Positions 2,376-35,535 of a stretch of 64,000 bases of DNA are shown here, piece after piece. Made by a program: the position numbers and the translations under genes. Each line of letters starts with the position of its first letter. The first letter of the stretch is position 1. Location of the stretch: NCBI RefSeq assembly GCF_011174705.1, contig NZ_JAANIJ010000001.1:372001-436000 (forward strand), given 5' to 3'. The stretch comes from Tessaracoccus coleopterorum (lineage in GTDB: Bacteria > Actinomycetota > Actinomycetes > Propionibacteriales > Propionibacteriaceae). The notes under the pieces are model-generated. The model had not been told where the DNA came from. It saw only the letters and a list, made by a program, of their open reading frames with translations, and did no database searches.

Positions 2376-2518
2376 GGAAAAATGGGCCAGTAGCCGATTC
2401 TGATCGGTCTGCCTGGAAGAAGTGACCACTGACCCGCCCCTCCCCCTGCCGAACCCCACGGAAAAATCGGCCAGTAGCCGATTCTGAACGGTCTGCCAGA
2501 AAGAAGTGACCACTAGCC
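2376..2518 (-). repeat. Repeat array A1: two copies of the hairpin repeat, minus orientation
   Basis: Copies at about 2376-2434 and 2460-2518, 84 bp apart. Each reads GGAAAAAT-CGGCCAGTAGCCGATT-CTGA-NCGGTCTGCC on the plus strand and ends in AGTGACCACT. The core AATCGGC-CAGTA-GCCGATT is a 7-bp stem with a 5-base loop. The first copy has AATGGG in the left arm, which breaks one pair. This is the same family as arrays A2, B and C. Confidence 0.9.
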
Positions 2519-2991
2519 GGACGTGCTCGGGATCCTTGGCAGCAACGGGGACGGCGAGGTGCTCGCCAAGTTGCACAGTCGGGCCCGGGTCCGAAGGCAC
2601 CCTGTTGCGGAGACCACCGTCATCGTCTGTCACCAGCCGTAGAGCACGGGGTGCCTCGTGTTCAGGTTGGTTGTCGCCGGCTCGACTGCTGAGACGGCGT
2701 CGTTACGGCTCTTGCCAGGGACGCGGACGGTCAGGCATTTGTCGGGTCGCACTGCCGGGTGCCGGTTGGCCGGGCGTTGAGATTCTTGGCAACAACCCGG
2801 ACGGCGGAGCCCCCGACCGGTTGCGCTGCCGGCTCCACATCCCGGGCGTCGGGTTAACAGACACCTGCCGTGCCGATGGCAGCGTTGTTCCTTGTCACCT
2901 GCGGTAGAGCACAGGCGCCGGGTGTGGGTTGGTATCCGCGGCGACGGGTGGGTGTCGATGACGGGGGTGTCTGTGGGCGGGCCGGGACGAG
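2519..2991 (+). pseudogene. Degenerate, internally duplicated segment between arrays A1 and A2
   Basis: This gene-poor stretch holds two diverged copies of one sequence, roughly 2527-2670 and 2780-2935. They share blocks such as ATCCTTGGCAGCAACGGGGA against ATTCTTGGCAACAACCCGGA, and GTCACC followed by CGGTAGAGCAC in both. In frame they read ILGSNGDG...VCHQP-stop and ILGNNPDG...PCHLR-stop. A third related piece near 2700-2770 reads ALARDADGQAFVGSHCR. The pattern suggests decayed coding sequence for a Cys-containing repeat protein. No complete gene, start signal or recognisable family is present. Confidence 0.4.
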
Positions 2992-3170
2992 GGTCAATGG
3001 CCACTATTTCCAGCAGGACCGATCAGAATCGGCTACTGGCCGATTTTCCCGACGGGACCGGGGCTGTGCGTCGGGACCCCGGGTGAGCATGACAGGGCAG
3101 GCCGGGACGAGGGTCAGTGGCCAGTATTTCCAGCAGGACCGATCAGAATCGGCTACTGGCCGATTTTTCC
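2992..3170 (+). repeat. Repeat array A2: two copies of the hairpin repeat, plus orientation
   Basis: Copies at about 2992-3049 and 3112-3170 read GGTCA-TGGCCA-TATTTCC, then a variable link, then AATCGGCTACTGGCCGATT followed by a T run. Spacing is 120 bp, and the 26 bp upstream (GGCCGGGACGAGGGTCA region) are duplicated as well. Orientation is opposite to A1. Confidence 0.9.
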
Positions 3171-3283
3171 GGGTCGGCGCGGCTCTCCGGCGGCCCGGGC
3201 TCACCGGGCACCAGTTTCGCGCCGGCGTGTCGGCCGTTCGGCGCAACGGCCCCCCGCGACCCGGTGCGCACCCCGGCGCCCCC

Positions 3284-3289
3284 TACGCT
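3284..3289 (+). promoter_or_regulatory. -10 box of AAA+ ATPase gene (leaderless type)
   Basis: TACGCT, then seven bases, then the ATG at 3297. Confidence 0.5.
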
Positions 3290-3296
3290 GGGGGTC

Positions 3297-4685
3297 ATGG
3301 ACATCGACGACGATCTGCGCGACTTTCTCCGCCAGTTCAGCCGCATCGGGGAACTGGCGAACATCGCACAGCAGCTCGACGCCCCGGCGAGACCCTCGAC
3401 GAGGCCCTGTCCGCGCATCTCGGCCGCCCGGCCGAGGGCATCGCGACGGTGTCGAAGGAGATCGCGGCCTACCGGTTCGCCGACTACGACGTCGCCTTCG
3501 AGCTCCTCGGCGGCCCGACGCCACCCTCCTCGGCATCGGCGGCGGCGACATGCGCCACCACAACTCGCTCTCCGACATGATCGGTAACCGCTGGAACCGG
3601 CTCCCCGTCGGACAGGTCGACTGGGCCGACGTCGCCGTCGGCCCCACCGAGACCCGCCGCGTGGTCGCCCTGGGCATCCGCCTCTTCCGCTTCCGCGACC
3701 AACCCGTCGCGGTGCTCACCCGCCGGAGCTCCCGCATGCACGGCAACGGCACCGGCGTCGTCGAGGTGCTCTGCCCCGACAGCCAGGCCGCGAGCGACCT
3801 GATCGCCGAGGCGACCCGGCTCGCCACCGAGCACTCGGTGCTCCGCGGCCACGTCGTCAGCCTCGAGATGATGGGGTACGAGGGCGAGGGCGACGGCTAC
3901 CGGTTCCACGTGCGACCCGACCTGCCCGCCGAGGCCGTCGTGCTCCCGGAGGGCACCCTCGAGCGGGTCACCGGGCACGTGCTCGGCGTCGCCACCCACG
4001 CCGACACCCTCCGCCGCTACGGTCAGCACCTCAAGCGGGGCGTCCTGCTCTACGGCCCACCCGGCACCGGGAAGACCCACACCGTCCGACACCTGCTGTC
4101 GGCGGCGCGCGACCACTCGGTGATCCTGCTCTCCGGCCAGACCCTCGCCCTCATCCGGCAGGCCACCTCGATCGCCCGGCACCTGCAGCCCGCCATCGTG
4201 GTGCTGGAGGACTGCGACCTCGTCGCCATGGAGCGCGGCTTCGACCCCTCCGGTCAGCCCCTGCTGTTCGAACTCCTCGATGCGCTCGACGGCCTCGACG
4301 CCGACACCGACATCGCCTTCGTGCTGACCACCAACCGGGTCGACGTGCTCGAGGAGGCCCTCACGCAGCGGCCGGGGCGGGTCGACCTCGCAGTCGAGAT
4401 CCCGCCACCCGACGAGGAGGCCCGGCGCAGGCTGCTGGACCTCTACCAGGGAGGCGTCACGTTCTCCGAGTCGGCGCTCGATGAGGTGGCGCGGCGCAGC
4501 AGCGCCCGCACAGCGTCGTTCTTCAAGGAGCTGATCCGTCGGGCCGTGCTCTACGCCGCCGAGGACGGCCTCGAGCCCACCGACGTGCACCTCCTGTCGG
4601 CGCTCGGAGCGCTGCAGTCAGATCAGGAGACGCTCTCGCGCAACCTCGTCAGCGGCTTCATCGACCCCACCCCGAAGGGTTCTGA
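3297..4685 (+). CDS. AAA+ family ATP-binding protein (three frameshifts)
   Basis: A protein of about 460 residues with an N-terminal domain of roughly 200 residues that I do not recognise, followed by one AAA+ module. Walker A is GPPGTGKT (around 4051-4074), Walker B VVLEDCD, sensor 1 VLTTNRVD, and RPGRVD supplies the arginine region; a C-terminal helical lid ends near QETLSRNLVSGF. Breaks near 3384 and 3520 and one in AAGGGTTCTGATG near 4678 are each repaired by one G or C. The last repair places the stop TGA at 4683-4685, overlapping the ATG of the next gene. The AAA+ family remodels or unfolds other molecules; the substrate is unknown. A TACGCT box seven bases upstream suggests a leaderless start. 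Confidence 0.82.
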
Positions 4686-6041
4686 TGGGAAATCGGCTGG
4701 GCTTCGGGCTCGGCACCCTCGGCCGCGATGCGCTCGCGGCGATGGTGTCGATGTTCCTCATGTTCTACCTCACCGACGTGCTCGAGATCTCCGGCGTGCA
4801 GTTCGTGGCGGTGAGCGTCGTGATGGTGGTCATGCGCGCCTTCGACGCCATCAACGACCCGTTCATGGGGTCGTCGTCGACAACACCCGCACCCGGTGGG
4901 GCAAGTTCAAGCCGTGGATCCTGCTCGGCGCCGTGGCGTGGGCGGCACAAGCCTCCTGATGTTCGCCGACTTCGGCGTGCGCGGCTGGGGCTTCGTGGTG
5001 CTGTTCACGATCGTGTATCTCGTCTACGAGATCTCCTACACCATCAACGACATCTCGTTCTGGTCGATGTTGCCTGCGCTGACCGACGATCAGGCCGAGC
5101 GTGAGCGGATCGGAGCGCTCGCCCGCGTCTTCGCCAACATCGGCCTCTTCGCGGTCGTGGTGGGCATCCTCCCCGTCACGAACGCGCTGACGGAGGTGCT
5201 CGGCTCGGACGAGGCCGCCTGGTTCGCCGTGGTGGTCGTGCTGGCCATCGCCATGCTGGCCTTCCAGTCCCTGACGCTGCTGTTCGCCCGCGAGCAGGTC
5301 AACGCCCCCCAGGAGAACACCCGGGTCATCGAGCTGTTCAAGGTGATCGGCCGCAACGACCAGCTGCTCTGGGTGACGCTCGCCATGGTGCTGTTCATGA
5401 CCGGCTATGGCATCACCACCTCGCTCGGCGTCTACTACTTCAAGTACATCGTCGGCGACGAGGGCGCCTACTCGATCTTCGCCGCCATCCTCGCCGTGGC
5501 CCAGATCGGCGCCCTGCTGTGCTTCCCGCTGATCTCGAAGAGGTTGCGACGCGGCCAGATCCACCTGCTCGCCACCTCGCTGATGGTGCTCGGCTACATC
5601 ATCTTCCTGTTCTCCGCCGGGTCGCTGGTGGTCACCGGCGTCGCCGGTGTGCTGATGTTCTCCGGCCAGGGCATGATCCAGCTGCTCATGGTGATGTTCA
5701 TCGCCGACAGTGTCGAGTACGGCGAATGGAAGCTCGGCCGCCGCAACGAATCGGTGACGTTCTCGCTGCAGCCGTTCATCTACAAGCTCAGCAACGCCAT
5801 CGCCGTCGCCGTGGTCAGCGGCACCGTGCTCATGACCGGCATCGACGGCGCGGCCTCGGCCGCCGACATCGACACGCAGGAGGCCTGGCTCTTCCGGCTC
5901 TCGATGATGGTCGTGCCCGCCCTGCTGGTCGCGGTCAGCTTCGTGGTGATGCGGCTGAAGTACGTGATCGACGAGGAACGCTACGGCCGGATCCTGGCCG
6001 ACCTGACCGTGCGGAGGGCCGCCCATGTTGACGAGGAATAG
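4685..6041 (+). CDS. GPH-family (MelB-like) sugar:cation symporter (two frameshifts)
   Basis: Glycoside-pentoside-hexuronide transporters import sugars or glycosides with a cation. The protein begins MGNRLGFGLGTLGRDALAAM, has the family segment [32 protein letters not shown] after repair, then about ten further membrane spans and the late motif DSVEYGEWKLGRRNESVTFS. Breaks near 4868 and 4943 are both missing G in a G run. Its start overlaps the AAA+ stop (TGATG) and its end overlaps the start of the GH13 gene by 17 bases, so the three are very likely one operon. With the downstream glucosidase it suggests uptake and cleavage of an alpha-glucoside. The exact substrate is not visible. Confidence 0.85.
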
Positions 6042-7966
6042 CACCGTCTCCGACGTCTACGCGACGCCGCTCGGGCACGACGCGATCGACAAGATCCTGC
6101 TCCAGTCGGCCGCCCCGCGCGCGCTCGTGAAGGCGATCGGACGGCTCCGGCTCTCGACGCTGGACCGCCTGGCCCGCCGCTTCACCGGCCCAGGGTTCGT
6201 CGACGCGTTCATCGACCTGGTCAACTCCGAGCCGGAGCGACCTGTGGTCGCGCCGGCCCCCGACCCGGCCCCGTGGTGGATGGAGGCCGTCTTCTACCAG
6301 GTCTATCCGCGCTCGTTCGCCGACTCCGACGGCGACGGCATCGGCGACCTGCGGGCATCATCGACCACCTCGACCACCTGGCCGACCTCGGCGTCGACTG
6401 CCTCTGGCTCTCCCCATCTTCGACTCCCCCAACCAGGACATGGGCTACGACGTCTCCGACTACCGGGCGGTGATGGCCGAGATGGGAACCCTGGCCGACC
6501 TCGACGAGCTGATCGCGGGCTGCCACGAGCGTGGCATGCGGATCATCCTCGACCTGGTGGTCAACCACACCTCCGACCGGCACCGGTGGTTCCAGGAGGC
6601 GGTCCGCGACCCCGACGGCCCTACGGCGACTACTACTTCATGGTGCCGGGCACCCGGAGACGCCACCGAACAACTGGACCTCCTTCTTCTCGGCCCCGCC
6701 TGGCGGTGGATCCCGGAGGCGCGGCGGTGGGCGCTGCACCTGTTCGCCGACGGCCAGATGGATCTGCGCTGGGACAACCCGGCCGTGCGGCGCGAGGTGG
6801 CCGACATCGTCGCCTGGTGCAGGACCGCGGCATCGACGGCTTCCGGCTCGACGTCATCAACTACATCTCCAAGCCTGACGGTCTCCCCGACGGTAACCCG
6901 TTCGTGGGCGGCCTGATGGGTTTCGTGGGCGTCGAGCACTACTTCTACGGCCCGCGGCTCGGCGAGTTCCTGCGCGGCCTGCGGCGCGACGGCTTCACCC
7001 GACGCGCGGCCCCACCTCGACCCCGCGCGTCAGGCTGGCCGACGGCTCGCTCGGCGATCCCTGCCCCGGATCCGGTGGGCGTCATGGTCGGCGAGACGCC
7101 GGGCATCGGCATCCAGCTCGGCCGCATGCTGAGCGGCGGCGGCCGCGACCAGCTCGATCTGATCTTCAACTTCGACATTCTCGACACCCCGGGCCACACG
7201 CGCTGGGACGACTACCGCTTCGATCCCGAGTACCTCAAGCGCTTCTACCGCGCCTACACCGGCGAGCTCGGCCCCAACGACTGGATCGCCGTCTTCCTGG
7301 ACAACCACGACAATCCGAGGATGCTCAGCAAGCTGGCCGACGGCGCCGAGTCGGATCCCGCGGTGCGCACCGCCGTCGGGAAGCTGCTCGCCACGCTCCA
7401 GCTCACGATGCGGGGCACCCCGTTCCTGTTCCAGGGCAGGAACTGGCGGCGGTCAACCAGCCCTTCCGGGGCCTGGACGACCTGCGCGACGTGGAGTCGG
7501 TCAACCGGTACGCCCAGCTGCTGGGCGAGGCCGTGGGGCCGGCCGCGGCGTGGCGCCAGATCCTGGCCGGGGCCCGCGACCACGCACGGGTGCCGATGCG
7601 CTGGACGCCGGAGGGCGGCTTCACCGCCGGCACCCCCTGGCTGCCGGGTCACGATGATGCCCCGGGTTCTCCGCCGCGGAGCAGGCGGCCGACCCCGACT
7701 CGGTGTACTCGTGGCACCGCGCCCTCATCGGGCTGCGCCGCCGCCACCGTGCCCTGACCCTGGGCGACCTGGCCTGGGTCAGGCCCGAGGCGAGGGCTAC
7801 CTCGCCTACACCCGCTCCCTGGGCGACGAGCGGTTCCTCATCGAGTGCAACGTGACGCCCGAGCCGCTGCGCCGCCCCGGCACGGGCTCGACGCCACCCC
7901 GCTGCTGGGCGGGAACGCGGACGCGCTGATGGCCCCTGGGAGGCGACCATCAGCGCGATCGGTTGA
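6025..7966 (+). CDS. GH13 alpha-glucosidase/oligo-1,6-glucosidase-like enzyme (many frameshifts)
   Basis: GH13 enzymes hydrolyse or transfer alpha-glucosidic bonds. After about 85 atypical residues the catalytic barrel starts at WWMEAVFYQVYPRSFADSDG. The conserved regions follow in order: DLVVNHTSDRH, GFRLDVIN (nucleophile Asp near 6853), GVMVGETPG (acid/base Glu near 7095) and FLDNHDNPR (transition-state Asp). The C-terminal beta domain ends at the TGA 7964-7966. I count at least eight breaks, among them near 6352, 6415, 6618, 6818, 7436, 7785 and 7880; most are repaired by one G or C. The region 6640-6700 is too damaged to reconstruct exactly. It overlaps the symporter gene. The cytoplasmic location is inferred from the lack of a signal peptide. 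Confidence 0.83.
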
Positions 7967-7972
7967 TCCGGG

Positions 7973-9397
7973 TCAGAGGCCGAGGAAGGCCCTGAACTCC
8001 TCACAGCAGCGCTCGGCGCGCTCCCGGTCTGGCATCTCGCAGAAGATGCGCAGCAGCGGCTCGGTGCCGGAGAAGCGGGCGATGATCCAACCCTCCTCGA
8101 AGTACACCTTGCAGCCGTCCTCGTAGGACGTGCGCACGACCGGTTCGCTGAAGGTCGGGAGGTCCTTCTCCACCATCAGGGTGTCGAGGATCTCCGCCTT
8201 GCGCTCCGGGTCGAACGGGAAGTCGGTCTCGGCCATGTAGTGCGGCGGGAACTGGCCGACGATCTCCTCGTAGATCTGGCTCATGGGCTTGCCGACGACG
8301 GCGATCATCTCGACCAGCAGCGCGGCGGCGTAGATGCCGTCCTTGCCGGAGATGTGGCCGCGCACCGTCAGGCCGCCGGAGCTCTCGCCACCGATGACGG
8401 CGTCCGTCTCGAGCATCTTCCCCGAGATCCACTTGAAGCCGACCGGCACCTCGTAGGCGTTCTCACCAAACATCGCGGCGACGTCGTCGAGCAGCGACGT
8501 GGTGGCCACGTTGCGCACAACGGCGCCCTTCCAGCCCTTGTACTTGAGCAGGTAGTAGTAGAGGATCACCAGCAACTGGTTGGGGTGCAGGAAGTTGCCC
8601 TTGTCGTCGATGATGCCGATCCGGTCGGCGTCACCGTCGGTGGCGATCCCGAGGTCGCACCTGTGCTCGACGACGTAGCGGGAGAGGGCCCGCAGCGTGT
8701 GCGAGGTGGGTGAGGGCAGCCGGCCGCCGAACAGGGTGTCGTGGCGGTCGTTGATCACCTCGACGTCGGCACGCGCCGTCATGAGGATCGTCTGCAGCGA
8801 GGTCTTCGACACGCCGAACATGGGATCGAGCGCGATCTTGAGGCCTGCCTCCCTGATCGCCTCCATGTTGACCTGCGCGATGATCGAGTCGATGTAGCCG
8901 TTGAAGGTGTTGATCTCCTCGATCTGGCCGGTGGAGATCCCCTTCGGGTACGCGACCGACGCGATGTCGGCCTCCGCGGCCCCTCGAGGCCCTCCATGCG
9001 GCGCTCGACGTCGAGCGTCACGTCCTCGTCGGCGTCCTTGCCGCCGCGTGTGAACACCTTGATGCCGTTGTAGAGCGCGGGTTGTGGGAGGCGGTGATCG
9101 CCATGCCGTAGGGCAGGTTCTGGTCCTTGACGGTCCACATGATGAGCGGGGTCGGCGCCTGGGCGACCTTGATCACCTTGGTGGGGATGCCGTAGCCCGC
9201 GAACACCTCCGCGGCCCAGCCGGCGGCCACGTCGGACAGGAAGCGCCGGTCGTAACCGATCACGATCCCTCCGCCGCTACGCCCTCGTCCACCATCCGCG
9301 TCGCGAGGGCCGCGCTGAGCAGCCTCACGTTCGCCCGGATGAACTCGTCACCGATGATCGCCCGCCATCCGCCGGTCCCAAAACTGATTCGCGCCAT
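7973..9397 (-). CDS. Phosphohexomutase (phosphoglucomutase/phosphomannomutase family, three frameshifts)
   Basis: Members move a phosphate between C1 and C6 of hexose phosphates through a phosphoserine. The protein of about 475 residues starts MARISFGTGGWRAIIGDEF. It has the catalytic loop GMAITASHNP (active Ser), the magnesium loop TDGDADRIG, the sugar loop GGESSGG and the phosphate loop RFSGTEPLLRIF near the end. Breaks near 9268, 9083 and 8983 are single-base losses. A TAGTGT box seven bases upstream of the ATG indicates a leaderless transcript. It converges with the GH13 gene seven bases away, so a shared role in glucoside use is plausible. Glucose versus mannose specificity cannot be decided. 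Confidence 0.85.
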
Positions 9398-9404
9398 GTG
9401 CTCA

Positions 9405-9410
9405 ACACTA
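9405..9410 (-). promoter_or_regulatory. -10 box of phosphohexomutase gene (leaderless type)
   Basis: TAGTGT on the minus strand, then seven bases, then the ATG ending at 9397. Confidence 0.5.
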
Positions 9411-9569
9411 GACCCGTGCCCACCCTGGGACCCTCACCGGAGCGAGCGAATGCGCAGAGTTGCTGCGCGGCGCGCTCATCCGGTTTGCGCGCATCGGGCA
9501 CGCACCTGACCGGGCGTCGCCGCCCCGGCCACCCCGCCTGCGGGCGCGGCCACCGGCGGCGTCGGAGGG

Positions 9570-11166
9570 CTAGGCGAGGTCGACGAGCTCCGCGTAATCC
9601 TCCGACCACAGGTCCTCGACGCCGTCGGGCAGCACGAGCACGCGGTCGGGCTGCAGCGCCTCCACGGCACCGGGGTCGTGCGTCACCAGGACGACGGCGC
9701 CCGCGTAGGTGCGGATCGCGTTGAGCACCTCGGCCCGCGAGGCGGGGTCGAGGTTGTTGGTCGGCTCGTCGAGCAGCAGCACGTTGGCGGCCGAGACCAC
9801 CAGCATCGCGAGCGCGAGCCTGGTCTTCTCTCCACCGGAGAGCACCTTGGCGGGCTTCTCGACGTCGTCGCCGGTGAATAGGAACGAGCCCAGCACCTTG
9901 CGCACGTCGGTGTCGTTCAGGTTGGGCGACGCGGAGACCATGTTGTCGAGCACCGAGCGGGTGACGTCGAGCGTCTCGTGTTCCTGCGCGTAGTAGCCGA
10001 GCCGTGCGCCGTGGCCGAGCTCGACGCGGCCCGAGGTCGGGTCCTCCATGCCGGAGAGGATCCGCAGCATCGTCGTCTTGCCCGCGCCGTTCAGGCCGAG
10101 GATGACGACCTTCGAGCCGCGGTCGATCGCGAGGTCGACGGCGGTGAACACCTCGAGCGACCCGTACGACTTGCTGAGGTCGAAGCCACGCAGCGGCGTC
10201 TTCCCGGACGGCGACGGATCGGGGAAGCGGATCTTGGCGACCTGGTCCTGGGCGCGCTCCCCTCCACCCCGGCGAGCAGCCTCTCGGCGCGCTTGGCCAT
10301 GTTCTGGGCGGCGACGGCCTTGGTGGCCTTCGCGCGCATCTTGTCCGCCTGCGCCATCAGCTGGGCGGCCTTGCGCTCGGCGTTGGCCAACTCGCGCCTC
10401 CGGCGCTTCTCGTCGGTTTCACGCTGCAGCAGGTAACGCTTCCAGTCCATCGAGTAGAGGTCCATCTCGGCCCGGTTGGCGTCGAGGTGGAACACCTTGT
10501 TGACGACGGCGTTCAGCAGTTCCGTGTCGTGGGAGATGATGATCAGCCCGCCGGAGAAGCCCTGCAGGTAGCTGCGCAGCCACACGATGGAGTCCGCGTC
10601 TAGGTGGTTGGTGGGCTCATCGAGGAGCAACGTGTCCGCGTCGGAGAACAGGATGCGCGCCAGCTCGATGCGGCGCCGCTGGCCGCCGGAGAGCGTCTTG
10701 AGGGGCTGGCCCAGCACACGGTCGGGCAGGCCGAGGTTGGACGCGATGCGCGCCGCCTCCGACTCGGCAGCGTATCCGCCCGCGGCCAGGAACGCGGCCT
10801 CGGCGCGGGCGTAGGCCGCCATCGCCTCATCGCGCTCCGCGTCATCGGCCGAGGCCATCGTCTCCTCGGCGCGACGCATCCGGCGCATGGCCTGATCGAG
10901 GCCACGGGCGCCGAGAACACGGTCGCGTGCGATCTGCTCCGGATCTCCCGAGCGGGGTCCTGCGGCAGGTAGCCGAGCTGTCCGCTGCGCGTGACGGCGC
11001 CGCCTGCGGGCTGCGACTCACCGGCGAGGATCCGGGTAAGGGTCGTCTTGCCCGCGCCGTTCCGGCCAACGAGACCGATCCGGTCGCCGTCGATCACCTG
11101 GAAGCTGATGGGAGACAGCAGCAACCGGGCCCCTGCCCGCACCTCGATATCCTTGACCTGTAGCAC
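9570..11166 (-). CDS. ABC-F family ATPase (two frameshifts)
   Basis: ABC-F proteins have two fused ATPase domains and no membrane part; they act on the ribosome in translation control or antibiotic protection. Domain 1 has Walker A GRNGAGKT, signature LSGGQRRR and Walker B TLLLDEPTNHLD. A charged helical linker rich in Arg, Lys and Ala follows, including ETDEKRRRRELANAERKAA. Domain 2 has GLNGAGKT, LSGGEKTR and VLLLDEPTNNLD. Breaks lie near 10947 and 10262. The start is GTG at 11166; RarD is downstream of no shared promoter but lies upstream on the same strand. An ABC-F gene near the suf cluster matches actinobacterial gene order. Whether it confers resistance cannot be told. Confidence 0.9.
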
Positions 11167-11208
11167 CGACCCATCTTCGAGGGTCGCGACCGAATAACCA
11201 AACCCGGC

Positions 11209-12087: not shown

Positions 12088-12093
12088 CCGATG

Positions 12094-12099: not shown

Positions 12100-12136
12100 T
12101 CCGGCCGACGCTGCCGACCCCAATCGGCCACGGGCC

Positions 12137-24233: not shown

Positions 24234-24236
24234 CCG

Positions 24237-25620: not shown

Positions 25621-26078
25621 TGACGCACCGCCTCACCGATGAGGACATCGTGGTGGCCATCGCCACCACCGACGACTGGTTCCAGGCAGGCACCGTCGCC
25701 GAGCTGACGGCCCACGGACGCGCCCACCAGGCCGCCGGCCCCGACGCCCACAGCCGCAACCCCGAGCTCGACTTCCTCGATGCCGGGGGCACACCGCTGC
25801 GGCCGGTGCTGCTGCTCGACCACCGCGTGGCGGGCTTCGACCGCTCCGGCGACGCCGACCCGGGCGCGATGGAGGCGCGGCTGCGCGCCGTCCTCGAGCT
25901 GGGCCGCGCCCACGTCGCCGGAAACCCCGGTCGGTACCCGTCCAGGGCCTTCGACGCCGTCCCGCCGCCCGGCGACCTGGCTGCGCTCGTCACCTGGGTG
26001 CGGGCGGCGACCACCGACATCCCGAACGGGCACCAGGCGGGCTGGTTCCACAACGTCATGCACGCGCTACTGGGGTGA
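25621..26078 (+). CDS. Conserved hypothetical protein beside a histidine kinase
   Basis: An intact 152-residue soluble protein with a good ribosome binding site (GTAGGAGACCCC). I recognise no family. It is acidic and has no signal peptide or membrane span. Segments worth noting are TTDDWFQAGTVAELTAHGRAH, PVLLLDHRVAGFDRSGDADPG and a C-terminus rich in Trp and His (GHQAGWFHNVMHALLG). Its stop overlaps the kinase GTG start, so the two are translated together and the product may take part in the same signalling pathway. That is inference from position only. Confidence 0.75.
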
Positions 26079-28001: not shown

Positions 28002-28005
28002 CGTT

Positions 28006-28045
28006 GTCCCTCCCGGGACGGGTCAATGTCCCTTCCGGGCGGGAC
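28006..28045. promoter_or_regulatory. Two adjacent palindromes, candidate regulator binding site
   Basis: GTCCCTCCCGGGAC (28006-28019) and GTCCCTTCCGGGCGGGAC (28028-28045) start 22 bp apart, two helical turns. They lie between the kinase gene and the exported protein at 28108. The arms GTCCC/GGGAC are shared. Binding by the neighbouring NarL-type regulator is a guess from position and symmetry. Confidence 0.4.
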
Positions 28046-28107
28046 GCCGTCGCGGCGAGGCTGAAGGCACCCGGACGGACCGGGCAGCAGCCAGAAGGAG
28101 CAATCCC

Positions 28108-28726
28108 ATGCGACCGTTCACCACCTCACTCAAGCGCATCGCCATCGCCCTCGCGTTCGGCGCCGTGGCGGCCAGCCTCGCCGCCCCAGCGCCGGCGCCC
28201 TCCCAAGGAGCCTGCGTTCGACCCCGGGCCGCAGCTCGCCTCGGCCTCGACCTGTGCGACACCGGTCGGCACCCCTGGCAGCATCCAGGCCCTGCAGTTC
28301 ACCAAGCGCAACTGGCCGTTGACCGGCGGCCTCCACATGAACACCAGCGGCCGGATCGACCGCAACAGCGGCATCGTCGACGCGACCGTCCACCTGTACA
28401 ACAGCTACTGGGGCATGGGGTACACCGGCTCGGTGCTGATGGTGCTCAGGGACAAGTGCGGCGGCACCATCGGCGTCACGACACCGGGCAAGTGGGGCGT
28501 CGACGCGAAGAGCTGGTTCTGGAACACCAACGAGCGCCACGTCTACTACTCGGCGCAGGTCTCCCCTGTGATCGCGAACCGCGTCGCCTCCGTCGAGGTG
28601 ATCCACAACCGGGACACCGGAAACGAGTCGATCAGCCTGTACCGCTCGCTTCGCGATGCGGCCTGCCGTTACCTCATGAAGGAGGTCCCGATCATCACGA
28701 CGTGCCCCATCCCGAACCTCCGGTGA
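28108..28726 (+). CDS. Exported protein of unknown function (one frameshift)
   Basis: The ATG follows AGAAGGAG. A signal peptide of about 28 residues is clear (RPFTTSLKRIAIALAFGAVAASLAAPAPA), and one C missing near 28201 joins it to the mature part starting PKEPAFDPGPQLASAS. The mature region of about 170 residues has three Cys (STCATP, DKCGGT, AACRYL) plus a fourth near the end (TTCPIP), which may form disulfides. It is rich in aromatic residues (NSYWGMGYTG, SWFWNTNERHVYYSAQ). I recognise no family. The position behind a two-component kinase and a paired palindrome suggests regulated export. Confidence 0.75.
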
Positions 28727-28759
28727 CCACGGTCGGCGGGCGCTGACCCCCTCTCCAGC

Positions 28760-28765
28760 TAGGGT
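28760..28765 (+). promoter_or_regulatory. -10 box upstream of the small lipoprotein gene
   Basis: TAGGGT 53 bases before the ATG at 28819, which would give a short leader. Confidence 0.35.
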
Positions 28766-28818
28766 GGACGCGCCCGCGCACCGCCGGTGCGCCGACAGAT
28801 CCGGAGAACCCGAGAAAC

Positions 28819-29244
28819 ATGATGTTCCACAAGACCGGCACCCTCGCCGTCGCCGCCCTCGCCGCCCTGAGCCTCTCGGCCTGCGGTGGAGAGCAGTCCG
28901 TCACCGAGGCGTGCACCATCGCCTCCACGACCGTCAAGGCCGCCGAGAGCGAGATCACCGAGGCGATGTCGGGTGCCACCACCGGCGAGTTCTCGAAGGT
29001 CGTGCAGGGCTTCGAGACCCTCGGCACCACGCTGAGCGAGGCCGAGGGCAAGATCACCAACGCCGAGGTCAAGGCCGCGCTGGGCGACTTCAGGACCAGC
29101 ATCCAGGACTTCTCGAAGCTGTTCGAGGGCGCGACCGACGGCGACCTGACGGCCCTGGCCGACAAGACCGAAGAGCTCCAGACGATCAGCACCAAGATGG
29201 GCGATTCGGCCACCAAGCTCGGCGAGCTCTGCCCCGCCGGCTGA
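28819..29244 (+). CDS. Small predicted lipoprotein of unknown function
   Basis: An intact 141-residue protein. The signal peptide ends in the lipobox LSAC (Cys about residue 22) and is followed by GGEQSVTEACTIASTTV. The mature part is predicted alpha-helical with repeating polar/hydrophobic spacing and many Thr, Glu and Lys residues. Cys residues near both ends (EACTIA and ELCPAG) could pair. It is anchored outside the membrane by inference. No family recognised. A strong hairpin follows the stop codon. Confidence 0.8.
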   Translation: MMFHKTGTLAVAALAALSLSACGGEQSVTEACTIASTTVKAAESEITEAMSGATTGEFSKVVQGFETLGTTLSEAEGKITNAEVKAALGDFRTSIQDFSKLFEGATDGDLTALADKTEELQTISTKMGDSATKLGELCPAG

Positions 29245-29265
29245 TCCAGCCGATCCGACGCAGAC

Positions 29266-29293
29266 GGCCCGGCCCCGCACCCGGGGCCGGGCC
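29266..29293 (+). terminator. Hairpin after the small lipoprotein gene
   Basis: A perfect 12-bp stem, GGCCCGGCCCCG (29266-29277) and its complement (29282-29293), with a 4-base loop, 21 bases after the stop at 29244. No T run follows. Confidence 0.7.
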
Positions 29294-29520
29294 GAGCTGG
29301 TCGGGTCCATGCGGTCGGCGTAGCTGCCCAGGCGCCGTTTGCCCGCTGCTGGAACAGGCCGCGGGAATCAGGGCCGGCGGCGTCGCCGTAGTCGATCACG
29401 TTGAGTGAGGATTCACCCATCGCGGTCATGACTCCGATCGTCTGGTCCCGCACTGACAGGGCGAGCGCCTGGCCGGCCTTCATGATGTAGGCGGCGTTGA
29501 CCAACTGCTCGCGTCGCGCC
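29294..29520 (-). pseudogene. Fragment of a cell-wall hydrolase-type protein
   Basis: The minus strand reads EQLVNAAYIMKAGQALALSV, then VMTAMGESSLNVIDYGDAAG and PDSRGLFQQRANGAW, then after one missing G GSYADRMDPTSSA. This DAAGPDSRGLFQQR pattern is the C-terminal module of actinobacterial peptidoglycan hydrolases or phage lysins (lysozyme-like fold). The rest of the protein is absent on both sides, so this is a remnant. The adjacent recombinase-like fragment supports transferred-DNA debris. Confidence 0.6.
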
Positions 29521-29739
29521 GCGCTAGAGCAACAGATCAGCGAAGCGATCGGGGTCGCCGAGGTCGACGGCACCCGCGCCTTTGTAGCCGCCACAACGGC
29601 GGGCTGGTCCGCCACCGAACTGCGCAAGCTTGGGTTCCCAGAACCTGCCAAGTTGAGCGCTCGCACTCGTCGACGCAAGGCGCCGGCCAAGCCTGCCGGC
29701 ATGCCGGAAACGACGGCGACCCCTGCCCCCGGTCAGTGA
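29497..29739 (+). CDS. Orphan small ORF in a debris region
   Basis: Up to 80 residues from a TTG start, with coding-like third-position GC. The C-terminal part is LEQQISEAIGVAEVDGTRAF, then VAATTAGWSATELRKLGFPEP and a basic tail (SARTRRRKAPAKPAG). I recognise no family. It may be the surviving 3' end of a gene from a mobile element, since fragments of other genes lie on both sides. No ribosome binding site is visible. Confidence 0.35.
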   Translation: MTNCSRRAALEQQISEAIGVAEVDGTRAFVAATTAGWSATELRKLGFPEPAKLSARTRRRKAPAKPAGMPETTATPAPGQ

Positions 29740-29755
29740 GCTTGGACGTGTGGTC

Positions 29756-29893
29756 CCCTTCCTCCGGGTAATTGCCCGTGAGACGGTCGACTTTCCCACT
29801 CCGAGCACGTGCTCTGTCTGGGCGATGGTGGCACCCTCCTGGCGCATCCTGTGGGCCTGCGCGGTCCGCGTCTGCGTGCGCGTCGCCGTCAGT
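29756..29893 (-). pseudogene. Remnant of a serine-recombinase C-terminal HTH domain
   Basis: The minus strand encodes ALTATRTQTRTAQAHRMRQEG followed by ATIAQTEHVLGVGKSTVSRAI, which matches the helix-turn-helix end of resolvases/invertases. The catalytic domain is absent: the MFS gene ends at 29889 exactly where it would begin. It is therefore a truncated remnant. Confidence 0.55.
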
Positions 29894-31301
29894 GCGTGAG
29901 GGCCTCGGAGGGCTCGGCCTCGGGCCGCCGCAGGAAGAAGCCGCAGATCAGCGCGGCCGTCCACACCGCCCCGGCCCCCAGGAACGACCAGTGTGACCCG
30001 GCGAGCATCGCCTCGGCGTGGCTCCCGTGGTCGACCCGGCGGCCGCGGTCTGCATCGCGAACACCGTCACGAACAGGGCCGTCCCCGCCGCTCCCGCGAC
30101 CTGCTGGATCGCGCCGATGACGGCGGATCCGTGGGAGTACAGGTCGTTGGGGAGCGACCCCATCGCCACCGTGAACAGCGGCGTGAAGATCGACGCGAAG
30201 CTGATGCTCATCACGATGTGGGCCACCATCACGGCCCACCACGGCGTCACGAGGCTGAGCGTCGAGAAGAACGCGAACACCCGAGGACGACGAAGCTGGC
30301 CGGGATCACGAGCACCCGCGGACCGAACCGGTCGAACACCCGGCCGACCACCGGCGACAGCAGGCCCATCGCGACGCCACCCGGCAGCAGCATGAGGCCG
30401 ATCTGCAGCTCCTCGATCCCGTAGGCCCGCTTCAGCAGCAGCGGAAGCATGATGATGGAGCCGAACAGCGCCATCATCGCGATGGCGAGCATCACGAGGG
30501 CGACCGTGAAGGACGGGTGGGTGAAGGTCCTCAGATCGAGGAACGCCCTGCCCCTGCCCTGCAGCACCAGTTGGCGGGCCGTGAACGCGACCAGGGCACC
30601 CAGCCCGACCCCGATGCTCAGCATCGGCACCCAGAACGCGACGTCGGCGGCCCGATGAGGCTGAGTCCGTAGATCAGCGGGCCGAAGCCGAGGGCCGTCA
30701 GGGCGACCGAGATCAGGTCGAGCGGGGTGCGCAGCGGCTCGTTGACCGAGGCGAGGTACCGGGCGCCGAGCACGAGCATCGCGAGCGCGATCGGCAGCAC
30801 GGTGAGGAAGATGGCCCGCCAGGAGCCGACCGAGAGGATGGCACCCGACAGCGTCGGCCCGATGGCAGGGGCGACGGCGATCACCATGGAGATGTTGCCC
30901 ATCATGGCGCCCCGCTCGGAGGGCCCGACGAGCTGCATCACGGTGGTCATCAGCAGCGGCATCATGATGGCGGTGCCGGAGGCCTGCACCACGCGGCCGG
31001 ACAGCAGCAGCGCGAAGGTGGGCGCGATCGCGCACAGGAGGGTCCCGACGCTGAACGTCGCCATCGCGATGACGAAAACGCTCCTGGTGGGCAGGCGGTC
31101 GAGCAGCCATCCGGTGATCGGGATGACCACGGCCATCGTCAGCATGAACGCCGTCGTGAGCCACTGGGCGGTGCGTTCGGTGACGGAGAAGTCCTCCATG
31201 ATGGCGCTGAGCGCGACATTCATGGTGGTCTCGTTGAGGATGACGACGAAGGCCGCCACGATGAGGATCGGGATCACTCCACGGGGACGGGTGGTCTCCA
31301 T
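29889..31301 (-). CDS. MFS drug exporter, DHA2/EmrB type (three frameshifts)
   Basis: A 14-span family exporter of about 470 residues. It starts METTRPRGVIPILIVAAFVV after GAGAGGA and shows NETTMNVALSAI (span 1 signature), WLTTAFMLTMAVVIPITGWL and the loop motif DRLPTRSVF. The antiporter motif region GPTLSGAIL and the later GGVAMGLLSPVVGRVFDRFGPR follow. Breaks near 30653, 30290 and 30025 lack one base each. The repaired C-terminus ends RRPEAEPSEALTH. It lies 28 bases after the DUF4921 gene on the same strand, so the two are probably cotranscribed. The substrate is unknown. Confidence 0.88.
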
Positions 31302-31329
31302 CGGGGTTCCTCTCGGGTGGGTTTCCCCG

Positions 31330-32629
31330 CTACCCCTGATAGCGCAACGGGTCGGGGCGCAGCCGCGCCTCCTCGGCGATCGCCAGGTCGCCGGGGATCA
31401 GCCCGGCCTCACGCAGTTGGAACAGCCGCGGGACGATGCGCCCATGAAGCGTAGCCGGTGCGATCGTATTCAAGTAAATCTTGGTGGCGCCCTCGAAGCC
31501 CGCGAGCGTCGAGACCCTCAGTTTCACCATGATGCGCCACGGCATGGCCGTGTCCACACCCACCGGACGGTAGTGCCACTCCTCATTGCACGGCACGTCG
31601 GGCCCGATCGCGGCGTGCACGGCATGCAGCACGTCGGAGACGCCGCGCAGTTCCTCGGAGGTGTGGTTCCAGGGCTCGCAGGTGGGCGAGGTGGAGTAGA
31701 CCTCGACGGTGGATAGCGGTGGCCGAAGCCGGCGAACGCGATGCAGTGCCCGTTGGCGGCGAGGATCAGGCCGTTGGCGATGGCGACGTTGAGCGCGTCG
31801 TCGTTGAAGGCGTTCGGGTGCTGCCGCACGCGTCGCAGGGAGGCGTCCTGCTGGGCGCCGAACTCGTCGATGGCGACGACCTGCTTGTGCAGGTGGTCGA
31901 ACGAGGCGCCCGCCGCCTTGAGCCAGTTCTGCAACACGACCACGTACCTCGCGTGCGGGTTGAGGTCGTGCCCGCTCCGCGCGGCCTCCGCCGTGTAGGC
32001 GATGAAGCGGGCGTGCTCGTCCGGCGTCAGGGTGCCGGAGGAGGCCAGCTCGGCGTCGGTGGTGGCGCCGTCGACGAAGTGCCGCCGGGCGATGATCACG
32101 TCGTGACCGCCGCCGAAGAAGCCGGAGGCCTGCTCCAGCAGCTCGTCCGGGGTCAGTGTCGCCGGGTCGAGGCCCGCCGCCCGCGCCTTCGCCGCGGCGA
32201 CCGCCTCGACGTGGGCGCGCCCTTCGGCCGAGGCGAGGTAGACGTCGCGCCTGCGCCGCACCTCCGGCGGGATCAGGTAGCCGTGGTTGAGGTGCCAGTA
32301 GTCGTAACCGAGGATTTCGAAGAGGTTGGGGACGCGCCGGAACTCGGCGACGGTGTCGAAGACGGCGTGGGCCTGGGTGGCCTCCAGGAGCCTCCACTCC
32401 CCGCCCCACGCACGAGGCGCGACTTCTCCGGCGGCGTCTCGAGGTAGCGCGCGGAGCAGAAGGCGCAGCTGTGGGTGGGGTCGTCGGGCGAAAGCGGGCG
32501 CGGGTCGGACCGCTGCTGAGCGAAGGGTCGGTTGCCGCGGCCGGGGACGGTCCAGACCTCGGTGCCGGTGAACGGGTTGCGCTGCTTGACGGTGCCGTCG
32601 GGCAGTTCCACGAGGTGTTCGGGCGTCAT
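31330..32629 (-). CDS. DUF4921 family protein, galactose-1-P uridylyltransferase-like (two frameshifts)
   Basis: A HIT/GalT-fold protein of about 430 residues. It starts MTPEHLVELPDGTVKQRNPF, with a Cys pair in HSCAFCSARYLETPPEKSRLV that may bind zinc. The HIT-like active-site segment is GASFDHLHKQVVAIDEFG (H-L-H-K-Q). It ends RLRPDPLRYQG. Breaks lie near 32410 and 31717. A TAGGGT box six bases upstream of the ATG makes it leaderless. The nucleotidyl-transfer role is inferred from fold similarity; the true substrate is unknown. Confidence 0.82.
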
Positions 32630-32635
32630 GGAGCG

Positions 32636-32641
32636 ACCCTA
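32636..32641 (-). promoter_or_regulatory. -10 box of DUF4921 gene (leaderless type)
   Basis: TAGGGT on the minus strand, then six bases, then the ATG ending at 32629. Confidence 0.5.
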
Positions 32642-32698
32642 TCCGGGCGGGTCGCTCACCCGTCCTCAGTCCCCACCGTCTCCCGACCCGCAGGACCC

Positions 32699-32892
32699 GG
32701 AAAAAATCGGCCAGTAGCCCATTCTGGTCGGTCCCACTGAAAATACCGCCCACTCCCCGACCGGACCCCACGACAGGACCCGGAAAAATCGGCCAGTAGC
32801 CCATTCTGGTCGGTCCCACTGAAAAAACCGCCCACTCCCCGACCGGACCCCACGACAGGACCCGCAAGAATCGGCCGGTAGCCCATTCCGGC
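32699..32892 (-). repeat. Repeat array B: two full and one partial hairpin repeat, minus orientation
   Basis: Copies start near 32699, 32782 and 32864 (the last is cut to about 29 bp), with an 82-83 bp period including a shared linker CCCGACCGGACCCCACGACA. The core is AATCGGCCAGTAGCCCATT, in which one stem pair is lost in all three copies. The orientation matches A1. It lies between the DUF4921 promoter and the end of the secreted gene. Confidence 0.9.
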
Positions 32893-32950
32893 AGCGCGGG
32901 TCCGACGGCGTCAGCCCCGTCCGCGCCATGCCGGGAACCCGGCCGACACC

Positions 32951-33016
32951 GATACCGCGACTCGAACGCCCGGCACCTGCGCTGGACGGCAGGTGCCGGG
33001 CGACCGCGTCGGTATC
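32951..33016 (-). terminator. Long hairpin after the secreted dimethylformamidase-like gene
   Basis: The inner stem GCCCGGCACCTGC (32968-32980) pairs with 32989-33001 around an 8-base loop. The outer GATACC (from 32951) and GGTATC (to 33016) extend the structure. It lies 19 bases past the stop codon at 33035. Confidence 0.7.
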
Positions 33017-33034
33017 AGCGGTGGTCGGGTCTGT

Positions 33035-34858
33035 TCAGGAGAAGCGCACCATGTTGTTGAGGCGCCAGGCGAACTCCCAGCGGTAGGCCCTGTTTCCGCT
33101 GGGCGTCAGGTAGCTGGTGACCGCCTCCGACCAGATGTAGCTCCGGCAACCGTTGCGCCCGGTGACGGCGGTGTCGCAGTCCGTCTTCCAGCGGCGTCCC
33201 TCGGCGGAGGTCCACTGACCCGTATTGCCAAGCGGGTTGCCGCTCCACTTCGTGGGCGGCATCGCCTTGTACGTCAGGTTGTTTAACACCCACTCGTTGC
33301 TGGCGACGAACCGCGAGCCCTGCTGCTTGACCGTCGTGGCGAAGATGTCCGTGCGGCACCGCTCCGTCGCCGAGTACTTCTCGCACGTGGTCTGCCAACG
33401 GCGACCGTTGACGTCGTGGTAGCCGGGCGTGATGTAGATGTCGACGGGTGCCGGGCTGACCGGCTTGTCCGACGGGTAGACGGCCTCATAGTTGGCCGGG
33501 CCGTGTGCCGCGGCCCGAGTGGCCCGGCCGCCGCGGCGGTGATGATGTTGGAGATCACCTTCTTCGCAAATGCCACCGAACCCGCGGGATAGGTGATGCC
33601 GGGGCTGAGGGCGTAGGCGAAGCCCATCGTGCCGAGGTTGAGGACGCCAGCCCGGAGGGGCCACGTAGTAGGTGATGTCGCTGGTGCCCATGCGGGTGGT
33701 GCACTGGAACGAGCTGTGCGCCGCGATGTGCACCGACTTCGGCGAGTCGGGTCCAGCCTTGTCGACCTCGTGGCCGACCAGCTTCGGGTAGCGGCTGCCC
33801 ACCTTGGCTCCGGTGCCCGCGAAGGCCCAGAAGTCGGGGTTGACGATCACGAGATCGGTCTGCGGGTTCGCCCCGTCGCAGTCGTACTGGGAGCCGAGGA
33901 TCCGGGCCTCCGGGTTCGGGAACGGCTCGGAGCGGAACGTACCGGTCGACTCCTTCGTCTGCACCGGGTCGAGCTTGCTCAACTTGTACGAGGTCACCAG
34001 CGAGGTACCGTCCCAGCGCGTCCGGTAGAACATCGTGTTCGAGCCGAGGAAGATCAGGTTCGTGCCCCGGTCGCGCAGCTTCTCCAGGTTGGCGCGCATC
34101 GGCACGGTCCAGTACTCGTCGTGGCCCAGCGTCACCATCGCGGGAGACCCGGCGAACCGGTCGGCGCCCGCGTGAAGGTCGGCGTTCGTCGTGTAGGCCA
34201 GCGGCACACCGAGCGACTCCAGGTACTGGATGAGCCCGAGTTCATAGCGGAAGATCTTGTCGGCGCCGTTGTTGTGTTCGGGTCGCTCGAGGCTGACGGT
34301 GTAGGCGCGCTCGCCGACGTGCATGGGGTTACCGCCGAGGTAGAGCGAGTAGCCGCCGGTGGTGTTGTAGGCCGCGTGCGTGAAGGTGGCCGACATGACG
34401 GTGACCTTCCCCGCGAAGCTCGTCGACCGCAGCACGGTCGCGATGTAGCGCTCACGTCCCTTCCCGTCCGTGAGCTTGGAGAAGTACATTCCAGGCTCCC
34501 AGCCCCGGTGTCGACGGTGTGCGTCACGGCCCAGTGTGAGCAGTCGACAGTGCGGTCGTCGAGCCGGCAGGCAGGTTGGCGCTTGAGGGGCTGCGACGGC
34601 AGTTGTGCGACGAGCCGAGCGCCCGCGCCGTCGTAGTGCCCCATCCGGTAGATGTCGACCTTCACGCTACCGCCGGTGCCGTCTACCTTGAGTTGCAGCT
34701 TCTGGCCCGGGTGATCGACTCCCCACGGAGAAACCGGCCAGCTCCTGTGGCGTCGCAGGTTTGCTGATCCTCCAGTCAGGTTCCGACGCCGCGGCCGGGC
34801 CCACCGCACCCAGGGTGGCGACCAGGACCGCTGCGAGTATGGATGCGAAGAAACGCAT
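33035..34858 (-). CDS. Secreted N,N-dimethylformamidase-like protein with C-terminal repeats (about five frameshifts)
   Basis: It starts MRFFASILAAVLVATLGAVG, a signal peptide ending near AAASEPDW, in a protein of about 600 residues. The central domain resembles the large subunit of N,N-dimethylformamidase (HAAYNTTGGYSLY, YTTNADLHAG, TLGHDEYWTVPMR, NLIFLGSNTMFYRTRW). The C-terminal 130 residues hold two similar Cys-paired repeats, with anchors RWQTTCEKY...CRTDIF and RWKTDCDTA...GCRSYIW. Breaks lie near 34725, 34503, 33655, 33520 and 33500. No anchoring motif follows. The gene stands alone between repeat arrays B and C. Enzyme activity is inferred only. Confidence 0.72.
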
Positions 34859-34898
34859 GCTGTAAATCCCCTGTGAAATCAACATTGATGACGGGGAC

Positions 34899-34904
34899 AG
34901 GCTA
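34899..34904 (-). promoter_or_regulatory. -10 box upstream of the secreted gene
   Basis: TAGCCT on the minus strand, about 40 bases before the ATG ending at 34858. Confidence 0.35.
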
Positions 34905-35229
34905 TCGGTGGGGCATCGGGGACGACGAGGGGGTGCCCTTACCTCTGGCCAGACCTGAGGCGTGGACAAGGGAACACCCGACCCGACCCCGGGCGGAGAC
35001 TCGCCACTCTCTTCAGCGTGACCGGCCGGACGCGGCTACTGCCACCGACCCAGCTCGAAGCACCCGGTCAGGGCCTCCCGTGAGGCGGGGAACACCCGCG
35101 TCGAAGCAGACCGCGCCCGTTGTCGACCCGCACACAACGGGGTCGACGTGACCCGAGACCCTCTGGTCCGGGACACGATCAAAGGCGGCCGTGGGTATTG
35201 CCGCCAGGGCCCGGATCTCAGCGCGTCGG
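34905..35229. other. Gene-free stretch between secreted gene and array C
   Basis: About 325 bases with no convincing coding sequence, hairpin or repeat. Open frames here are short and lack start signals. Confidence 0.5.
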
Positions 35230-35535
35230 GCAGTGGCCACTATTTCCAGGCAGACCGACCAGAATCGGCTACTGGCCGATTTCCCAGGAGACCCGGCAGG
35301 GGACGGACGGGTCAGCGGCCACTATTTCCAGGCAGACCGACCAGAATCGGCTACTGGCCGATTTTCCCAGGAGACCCGGCAGGGGACGGACGGGTCAGCG
35401 GCCACTTTTCCCAGGCAGACCGACCAGAATCGGCTACTGGCCGATTCTCCCAGGAGACCCGGCAGGAGGACGGACGGGTCAGTGGCCACTATTTCCAGGC
35501 AGACCGACCAGAATCGGCTACTGGCCGATTTTTCC
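35230..35535 (+). repeat. Repeat array C: four hairpin repeats, plus orientation
   Basis: Core sequences AATCGGCTACTGGCCGATT begin near 35262, 35344, 35427 and 35511, an 82-84 bp period. Each copy starts with GTGGCCACTATTTCC or a variant, then GGCAGACCGACCAG, the core and a T run. The linker AGGAGACCCGGCAGG-GGACGG is shared. All four stems are intact. It ends 39 bases past the ctaB stop. Confidence 0.93.

Follow-up and report, generated by a model that had tools for sequence, protein, structure and literature searches.

A dispersed, helically phased intergenic repeat in the genus Tessaracoccus

What is the role of a family of hairpin-cored repeats that stands in short tandem arrays outside the genes of Tessaracoccus coleopterorum? 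We analyzed a window of 64,000 nucleotides (contig NZ_JAANIJ010000001.1, positions 372,001 to 436,000), in which a sequence-only reading had noted eleven intergenic copies of a terminator-like hairpin with a period of about 83 bp. For REPs, the closest known comparison, the usual explanations are RAYT transposases or RNA hairpins. We assessed both explanations by comparing the element within the window, across its own genome (G000) and among related genomes.

The element in the window and in the genus

A search for the core with up to three mismatches located 11 places in the window, compared to a mean of 0 in 100 shuffles, confirming that the copies are real; the 18 rows returned include matches on both strands for 7 of the 11 copies. 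At about 60-65 bp, the conserved unit exceeds the core first described. The copies are organized into four arrays:

2373..2437, minus strand: element copy, array A1, stem mismatch
2457..2521, minus strand: element copy, array A1, 84 bp from the preceding copy
2989..3053, plus strand: element copy, array A2; no gene was called in the 467 bp between it and the divergent array A1
3109..3173, plus strand: element copy, array A2, 120 bp from the preceding copy; its 89.8 bits are the top model score of the genome
32697..32761, minus strand: element copy, array B, stem mismatch
32779..32843, minus strand: element copy, array B, stem mismatch, 82-bp period
32861..32925, minus strand: degenerate copy, array B, 23.4 bits, stem mismatch, right half alone recognizable
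35225..35289, plus strand: element copy, array C
35307..35371, plus strand: element copy, array C, 82 bp after the preceding copy
35390..35454, plus strand: element copy, array C, 83 bp after the preceding copy
35474..35538, plus strand: element copy, array C, 84 bp after the preceding copy; its T-end and the 3' end of a UbiA-like gene are about 37 bp apart

The initial description of these copies held in part. TRF reported an 82-bp period at 32691-32888 (array B) and an 83-bp period at 35227-35538 (array C), close to the 84 bp of A1, whereas in the plus-strand pair of A2 (2989-3173) the period is 120 bp. Seven copies have an intact 7-bp stem and the other four a mismatch in it. Likewise, the upstream near-palindrome is present as the exact decamer AGTGGCCACT in only 2 of 11 copies, with related forms such as AGTGGTCACT, AGCGGCCACT and AGTGGGCGGT in others. 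Most copies have a hairpin and a T-rich tail. Element identity is 0.882 within arrays versus 0.742 between arrays. The spacing is kept although, within arrays, the 15 bases outside each copy have an identity of only 0.52.

All copies in the window lie outside coding calls, as had been noted, in a genome with frameshifted-looking genes; the calls were made with our own non-standard codon-score script, which assigned 0.814 of the G000 bases examined to coding sequence. A single array of the 116 from four genomes, located in G015, shares more than 25 bp with a called gene.

The proposal of a dispersed, undescribed element was borne out by wider searches. G000 harbors 117 matches to the 65-bp family. 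The element was found in 7 of 39 Tessaracoccus genomes and in 7 of 198 genomes of the Propionibacteriaceae; among the genomes searched, only some members of the genus carry it. Since 32 of the 39 genomes are without it, it is not essential. No match was found in plasmids and phages (blastn) or in viral_contigs (pattern scan). Rfam covariance models gave no match in the window at the gathering score, and literature searches returned no description of the element and nothing relevant on helical phasing. The window belongs to a frameshift-rich assembly with a completeness of 60.93%, in which a DUF4921 gene is split over three frames, which would favor a local duplication or assembly artefact. This explanation is refuted by the single-contig genomes G015, G020 and G045, which carry dispersed copies with differing linkers, and by orthologous copies in G020 and G045.

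Many copies occupy orthologous places in the latter two genomes, although the counts of 22/22 and 26/26 are biased, most counterpart stretches having been chosen for holding a match; for these two counts, matches below 25 bits were discarded, and where matches on opposite strands overlapped the better was retained. When stretches were selected by synteny instead, 8 of 12 clusters had kept a match in the orthologous position and 4 had none. One of these four is a clean element-free site: at locus L226 of G045, about 26 unrelated bases replace the divergent pair and its surroundings present at L103 of G020, with no target duplication seen by eye at this one site. At least one orthologous site is without the element, which has therefore been gained or lost.

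Spacing, order and constraint

To describe the spacing, we pooled same-strand distances after dropping orthologous and duplicated arrays (the G045 spacings, many of them orthologous to G020, and three of the four DUF222-type arrays) and four partial G000 matches; G010 (T. bendigoensis) and G011 are represented by about 150 of 212 matches, those listed. The 78 spacings concentrate at multiples of 10.5 bp, the period that scored best when 7-16 bp was scanned; their resultant of 0.575 was reached by 0 of 20,000 jittered sets. The spacings of G010/G011, among the matches listed, are phased as well (n = 29, p = 0.0003), with a mode at 94 rather than 84 bp. When the classes 81-88 and 91-97 bp were removed, the remaining 31 spacings still phased at 10.5 bp (p = 0.0067), with 14.25 bp fitting better, and G015 alone (n = 6) was not significant (p = 0.17). 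Inter-site distances cluster at integral helical turns, as for a phased protein-binding array, more weakly so without the two main classes; the early remark on a period of close to eight helical turns thus pointed to the central feature of the family. The phasing could reflect the copy-making process instead of binding.

Neighboring copies are mostly head-to-tail, and where both orientations occur in a cluster the order is divergent, with minus-strand copies preceding plus-strand copies in all 21 mixed clusters when matches of at least 30 bits are counted (six in G000, nine in G020 and six in G045). Likewise, among the matches listed for G010/G011, 13 of 14 opposite neighbors within 3 kb are minus-plus. 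The exceptions are a plus-minus pair 2.2 kb apart in G000, another 953 bp apart in G010, and two overlapping 26-28-bit matches, outside the 21/21 count.

Comparison of G020 with G045 counterparts gives an identity of 0.942 for the 33 columns that are conserved in G000, versus 0.861 for 20 variable columns (matches below 30 bits dropped, as in the order count). Flanking intergenic DNA, at 0.891, lies between these two values and only slightly below the element as a whole (0.908). Constraint was not seen as base pairing. At the most variable stem pair, columns 42-54, the combinations are C-G (65), C-C (25), G-G (17), T-G (3) and A-G (2), with a compensated G-C in none of 112 copies, and no pair of the 7-bp stem is changed on both sides. 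Partial or gapped G000 matches were dropped (five in the stem-pair count, six in the consensus and column analyses). Stem pairs changed between G020 and G045 went from standard to non-standard in 31 cases and from standard to standard in 20. A longer stem, pairing columns 7-18 with 39-50, has one pair double-changed in 5 sequences and unpaired in 18, which does not clearly exceed what shuffles give (cells 46/500, score 51/500). What is preserved is the DNA geometry.

Known repeats and alternative explanations

As a short palindromic multicopy extragenic repeat, the element is REP-like. It resembles REP/BIME sequences, as described for the GTAG and CGTC superfamilies (PMC3733652, PMC2817692), in its high copy number, palindromic core, intergenic and species-limited occurrence, opposite-orientation pairs, use as an IS target, and more frequent placement by convergent than by divergent genes. 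In contrast to REPs of 20-40 bp, it is about 60-65 bp long, and it differs further in its head-to-tail neighbors, uncompensated stem and 10.5-bp phasing. GTAG or CGTC at the foot of the hairpin is absent from the consensus of G000, G015, G020 and G045; CGTC is found inside the G020/G045 consensus (columns 21-24) and GTAG inside the G000 core on the minus strand. The REPINs described in Pseudomonas fluorescens, with next-neighbor peaks at 71, 110 and 184 bp, are linked to RAYTs and their doublet is taken as the replicative unit (PMC3116915); the element shares with them inverted pairs and tandem clusters at regular distances, whereas its same-strand neighbors dominate and a RAYT-type gene was not found. 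The Y1 tyrosine transposase (RAYT, PF01797) was detected in none of the 39 genus genomes, with a control detected in 5 of 14 known genomes, in agreement with the sequence-only reading. We rejected a RAYT/REP origin on this absence.

In G045, an IS with an rve-type (DDE) transposase and a 14-bp target duplication inserts at one element position, within 1 bp, in four of four copies. IS1397 is an IS that targets REPs. Elements of this kind are described in PMC1525189 and, for ISPpu9, in PMC8450116; the G045 IS is like them in hitting one position, and unlike those described there in its transposase type, its duplication and its target, the new element.

A neutral or selfish REP- or MITE-like repeat, its transposase lost, diverged or unrecognized and its arrays and phasing by-products of copying, is a serious possibility that on balance we do not expect to be correct. 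The patchy presence in the genus, the lower identity between than within arrays, the intergenic placement, the role as IS target and the G045 site without the divergent pair of G020 are all consistent with it. The resistance of specific columns to change, the 8 of 12 clusters with a match kept at the orthologous place, the lack of Y1_Tnp in 39 genomes and the spacing kept despite poorly conserved outer bases argue against it. Arrays of intrinsic, possibly bidirectional, terminators are improbable. The core does have the shape of a terminator, as first observed, and the divergent order places an A-run and a T-run on the outside, in the style of a bidirectional terminator; moreover, a copy lies about 90-150 bp beyond 5S in 6 of 6 rRNA operons of G020 and G045. 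The T-end of these copies faces back toward the rRNA, the wrong way for terminating it. Also against such a function are the uncompensated stem changes, a scan of 32600-35600 that gave no terminator-like site, and the orientation counts, which had been called for and are random: 34 arrays sense versus 31 antisense between codirectional genes. (The counts 34, 31, 30 and 16 cover the 111 of 116 arrays flanked on both sides by a called gene; arrays are commoner between convergent than divergent genes.) The stem, orientation and scan evidence led us to reject an attenuator or terminator as the principal explanation. An association with rRNA 3' ends was likewise rejected as a general one, being seen in G020 and G045 only: no copy was found beside the 5S genes examined in G000 (2), G015 (2), G011 (1) and G007 (1), and a 5S gene was not found in G010.

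It is very unlikely that the element is the recognition or homing site of a mobile unit centered on DUF222-HNH (13E12-type) genes. Six of 12 DUF222 loci in G000 lie within 1 kb of an array, including those at all four arrays of 5-6 copies; the array-linked loci are duplicated units of 1.4-1.8 kb, one starting 3 bp from an element 5' end. The multicopy genes, duplicated in-genome and in some cases beside arrays, recall mycobacterial REP13E12/DUF222-HNH as described in PMC10589994; unlike that system, the association is found mainly in G000 and is dispensable for the G010 element. Outside G000, the loci this close to an array are only 2 of 14 for G020, 2 of 20 for G045 and 0 of 14 for G015 (search rows merged by the author). 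The element-rich G010 has no match to this protein at E<=1e-20, whereas 18 of 32 element-free genomes do, and the G000 cases may be hitchhiking duplicates. A hairpin search beside 30 DUF222 genes was too strict to weigh as evidence, since it missed L113, which carries an array. DUF222-HNH was rejected as an obligate partner, given the few close loci outside G000 and the lack of a G010 match.

A possible phased binding array

The reading that we tentatively favor, just short of even confidence, is a REP/BIME-like dispersed intergenic repeat that acts as DNA, forming phased binding arrays for a putative protein. Tandem copies whole turns apart suggest that a protein reads them as DNA and not as RNA hairpins. 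The element of about 60 bp would most likely be the binding unit of a sequence-specific DNA-binding protein, encoded by the host or by a mobile element. Whole-turn spacing would place bound proteins on the same face of the helix and allow cooperative binding, and the nucleoprotein array would form in intergenic gaps, more often by convergent than by divergent genes. Its purpose, at a guess, may be in topology or chromosome organization, like the role reported for BIMEs. We consider it rather unlikely that this is a genus-specific system in which REP-like, helically phased and divergent arrays arose without a RAYT and are kept for a putative cooperative DNA-binding protein (or a DUF222-HNH nuclease) that organizes, insulates or supercoils the chromosome.

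REP-like genomic behavior is found here although no RAYT was detected and the stem is not conserved, and a helical spacing rule is seen across several genomes. If the binding-array reading is true, such repeats can persist as phased DNA-binding arrays, a claim that can be tested in a named strain, T. bendigoensis DSM 12906.

Extent of the repeat family

The sequence-only reading had listed eleven hairpin repeats in the window, all intergenic, with a tandem period of 82-84 bp in three arrays (A1, B and C). A search with the core matched 11 places in the window and none in shuffled sequence, the copies lie outside called genes, and the periods measured for A1, B and C fall in that range. The 7-bp stem ascribed to each copy is perfect in 7 of the 11, the remaining copies being imperfect.

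Arrays of the repeat in the window
2373-2521 (-), array A1, period 84 bp
2989-3173 (+), array A2, period 120 bp
32697-32925 (-), array B, period 82 bp
35225-35538 (+), array C, period 83 bp

The divergent arrays A1 and A2 are separated by 467 bp without a called gene (2522-2988), near the left end of which a 41-bp piece shows 88% identity to the gap inside a divergent pair near 2813 kb. The assembly looks frameshift-rich, with a DUF4921 gene (31330-32629, -) broken across three overlapping frames and a completeness of 60.93%, and its gene counts are therefore unreliable.

A model (R1) of the 65-position unit, with the consensus GCGGGTCAGTGGCCGATATTTCCAGCCGGACCGACCAGAATCGGCTACTGGCCGATTTTTCCGGG, was built from an alignment of 38 copies. 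At E<=1e-3, it matched 117 places in the genome of the window (G000), in agreement with a dispersed element, 123 in Tessaracoccus bendigoensis DSM 12906 (G010), and 52, 34, 31, 20 and 4 in the genus genomes G011, G020, G045, G015 and G007, respectively, with no matches in the remaining 32 of 39 genus genomes. In a family-wide search (E<=1e-4, stricter filters), 7 of 198 genomes matched, all within one of 29 genera, and T. bendigoensis DSM 12906 was the sole named organism matched in a pattern scan; one of its loci agrees with a G010 locus at 100% identity over 2802 bp. The possibility of a local assembly duplication is answered by the presence of the element in three single-contig genomes; it is no artefact. 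Many copies of the T. bendigoensis draft assembly are at most about 130 bases from the first base of a contig (C26, C129, C107, C31, C89, C155, C108, C95 and C23), as if the repeats had caused assembly breaks. Among the papers listed in searches of an open-access library, none was seen to describe a repeat of this kind in Tessaracoccus; the repeats mentioned in passages of two of them (PMC6838118, PMC5408111) are CRISPRs and assembly repeats.

Spacing, order and base-wise constraint of the copies

Same-strand neighbours are mostly 73-76, 82-88, 92-96, 103, 114-117, 127, 136 or 187-192 bp apart, in-between spacings (e.g., 79, 80, 98, 109, 120 and 169 bp) being rarer. For 75 values from four genomes, with each array contributing one value per spacing class, a scan of 9.5-11.5 bp gave 10.5 bp as the best period, with a resultant of 0.654 that none of 3000 jittered sets reached. 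With orthologous and duplicated arrays removed and G010 and G011 added (n=78), the resultant was 0.575, 10.5 bp was the best period in a 7-16 bp scan, and 0 of 20,000 jittered sets were as high. Taken by themselves, G010 and G011 (mode 94 bp) also showed the phasing (p=0.0003), and G015 by itself (n=6) gave no significant result; without the 81-88 and 91-97 bp classes (n=31), p was 0.0067 at 10.5 bp, with 14.25 bp as the better fit. Past each copy, the next 15 bases have an identity of only 0.52 between array neighbours (vs. 0.37 between distant arrays), and thus spacing is retained while the linker varies.

Mixed-orientation clusters consist of minus followed by plus copies, with the T-rich 3' sides outward, in G000 (6/6), G020 (9/9) and G045 (6/6), as counted at a 30-bit limit and with orthologous loci shared between the G020 and G045 sets; two overlapping 26-28-bit matches, below this limit, would violate the order. 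Among the matches listed for G010 and G011, opposite neighbours no more than 3 kb apart are minus-plus in 13 of 14 cases, and a count over 3 kb in four genomes gave 24 minus-plus vs. 1 plus-minus.

If an RNA hairpin were important, then paired stem changes would be expected. At columns 42-54, where the stem pairing varies most, the 112 G000 copies have C-G (65), C-C (25), G-G (17), T-G (3) or A-G (2), and a compensated G-C occurs in none; the pair count gave 0 stem pairs changed on both sides (shuffle mean 1.0). In the longer stem compared between G020 and G045, 5 of 90 changed pairs differ on both sides, and the 90 comprise 20 standard to standard, 31 standard to non-standard, 27 non-standard to standard and 12 neither. 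Between G020 and G045, identity is 0.942 for the 33 columns that reach 1.5 bits in G000 and 0.861 for the 20 columns below 1 bit, compared with 0.891 for flanking intergenic DNA and 0.958 for coding DNA; column conservation in G000 correlates with this identity (Spearman 0.50, p=3.6e-5). The whole element (0.908) exceeds its flanks by a small margin only. Since conserved columns change less and stem changes are uncompensated, the constraint tracks bases rather than pairs.

Orthologous sites and neighbouring genes

The close relatives G020 and G045 share 95.8% identity in aligned coding DNA. Both flanks were matched in the compared stretches of the other genome for 22 of 38 clusters of G045 and 26 of 31 of G020, with the element at the counterpart in every one, a biased sample in that most counterpart stretches were chosen for containing it. 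Stretches chosen by synteny gave 12 further or repeated clusters with both flanks matched; the element was matched at the counterpart site for 8 of these and not for the other 4. One of the four is a clean element-free site, at which the divergent pair of G020 (2149776-2149920, stretch L103) and its surroundings are replaced in G045 (L226) by about 26 unrelated bases between flanks of 93% identity, with no target duplication seen; the other three are rearranged or badly diverged. The missing block also has an outer inverted repeat beyond the elements (CCCTGTCGCC and GGCGACAGGG). Copies per array differ between the two genomes at some loci. Matches at many, but not all, orthologous places indicate an old presence of the element at many sites, and its gain or loss at others.

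The occurrence in both orientations, seen in the sequence-only reading, was confirmed for 111 arrays with called genes on both sides (34 sense vs. 31 antisense between codirectional genes). Convergent gene pairs host 30 of these arrays and divergent pairs 16 (p=0.054 against equality); gaps of at least 100 bp in the same loci, arrays included, number 68 and 99, respectively. This placement is like that of REPs, the known bacterial palindromic repeats, and unlike that of terminators linked to the gene upstream. Each of the six rRNA operons in G020 and G045 has an element about 90-150 bp beyond 5S, with its T-rich end toward the 5S gene, and none adjoins the 5S genes examined in G000, G015, G011 and G007.

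Post-5S copies in G020 and G045
L099, 9755-9819, element copy beyond 5S
L096, L102, L081, L084 and L087, further such copies

Mobile-element connections and interpretation

The lack of a REP-type transposase noted for the window holds more widely, the Y1 transposase family being found in none of the 39 genus genomes searched. An IS of G045 that encodes an rve-type transposase has four matches, and 4 of 4 copies are inserted in the element, at positions that agree to within 1 bp and with 14 bp of target sequence duplicated; the element is uninterrupted in the three G020 counterparts compared. This IS seems to use the repeat as a landing site; IS elements targeting REPs are treated in excerpts of PMC1525189 and PMC8450116. 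Duplicated DUF222-HNH (13E12-type nuclease-domain) genes stand next to the four G000 arrays of 5-6 copies, an adjacency that is not general in other genomes. One duplicated unit starts 3 bp from the 5' end of an element. The comparison with REP13E12 draws on part of PMC10589994.

Mobile-element features associated with the repeat
L088, 5483-6820 (-), rve-type IS in G045; also L205, L206, L207 and L208
L051, 5101-6417 (-), duplicated DUF222-HNH gene with element array; also L054, L059 and L061, and L036 and L066

The phasing, the order and the base-wise constraint of the copies are demonstrated. As the closest rival reading, the element would be a selfish repeat that, by the way it is copied, itself generates helically phased duplicates. 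We read the element instead as a REP-like repeat without RAYT, the Y1 transposase of REPs, that is kept as phased DNA-binding arrays (REP comparisons draw on parts of PMC3733652, PMC2817692 and, for REPINs, PMC3116915); a protein would bind these arrays, and its cooperation and purpose are likewise what we infer.
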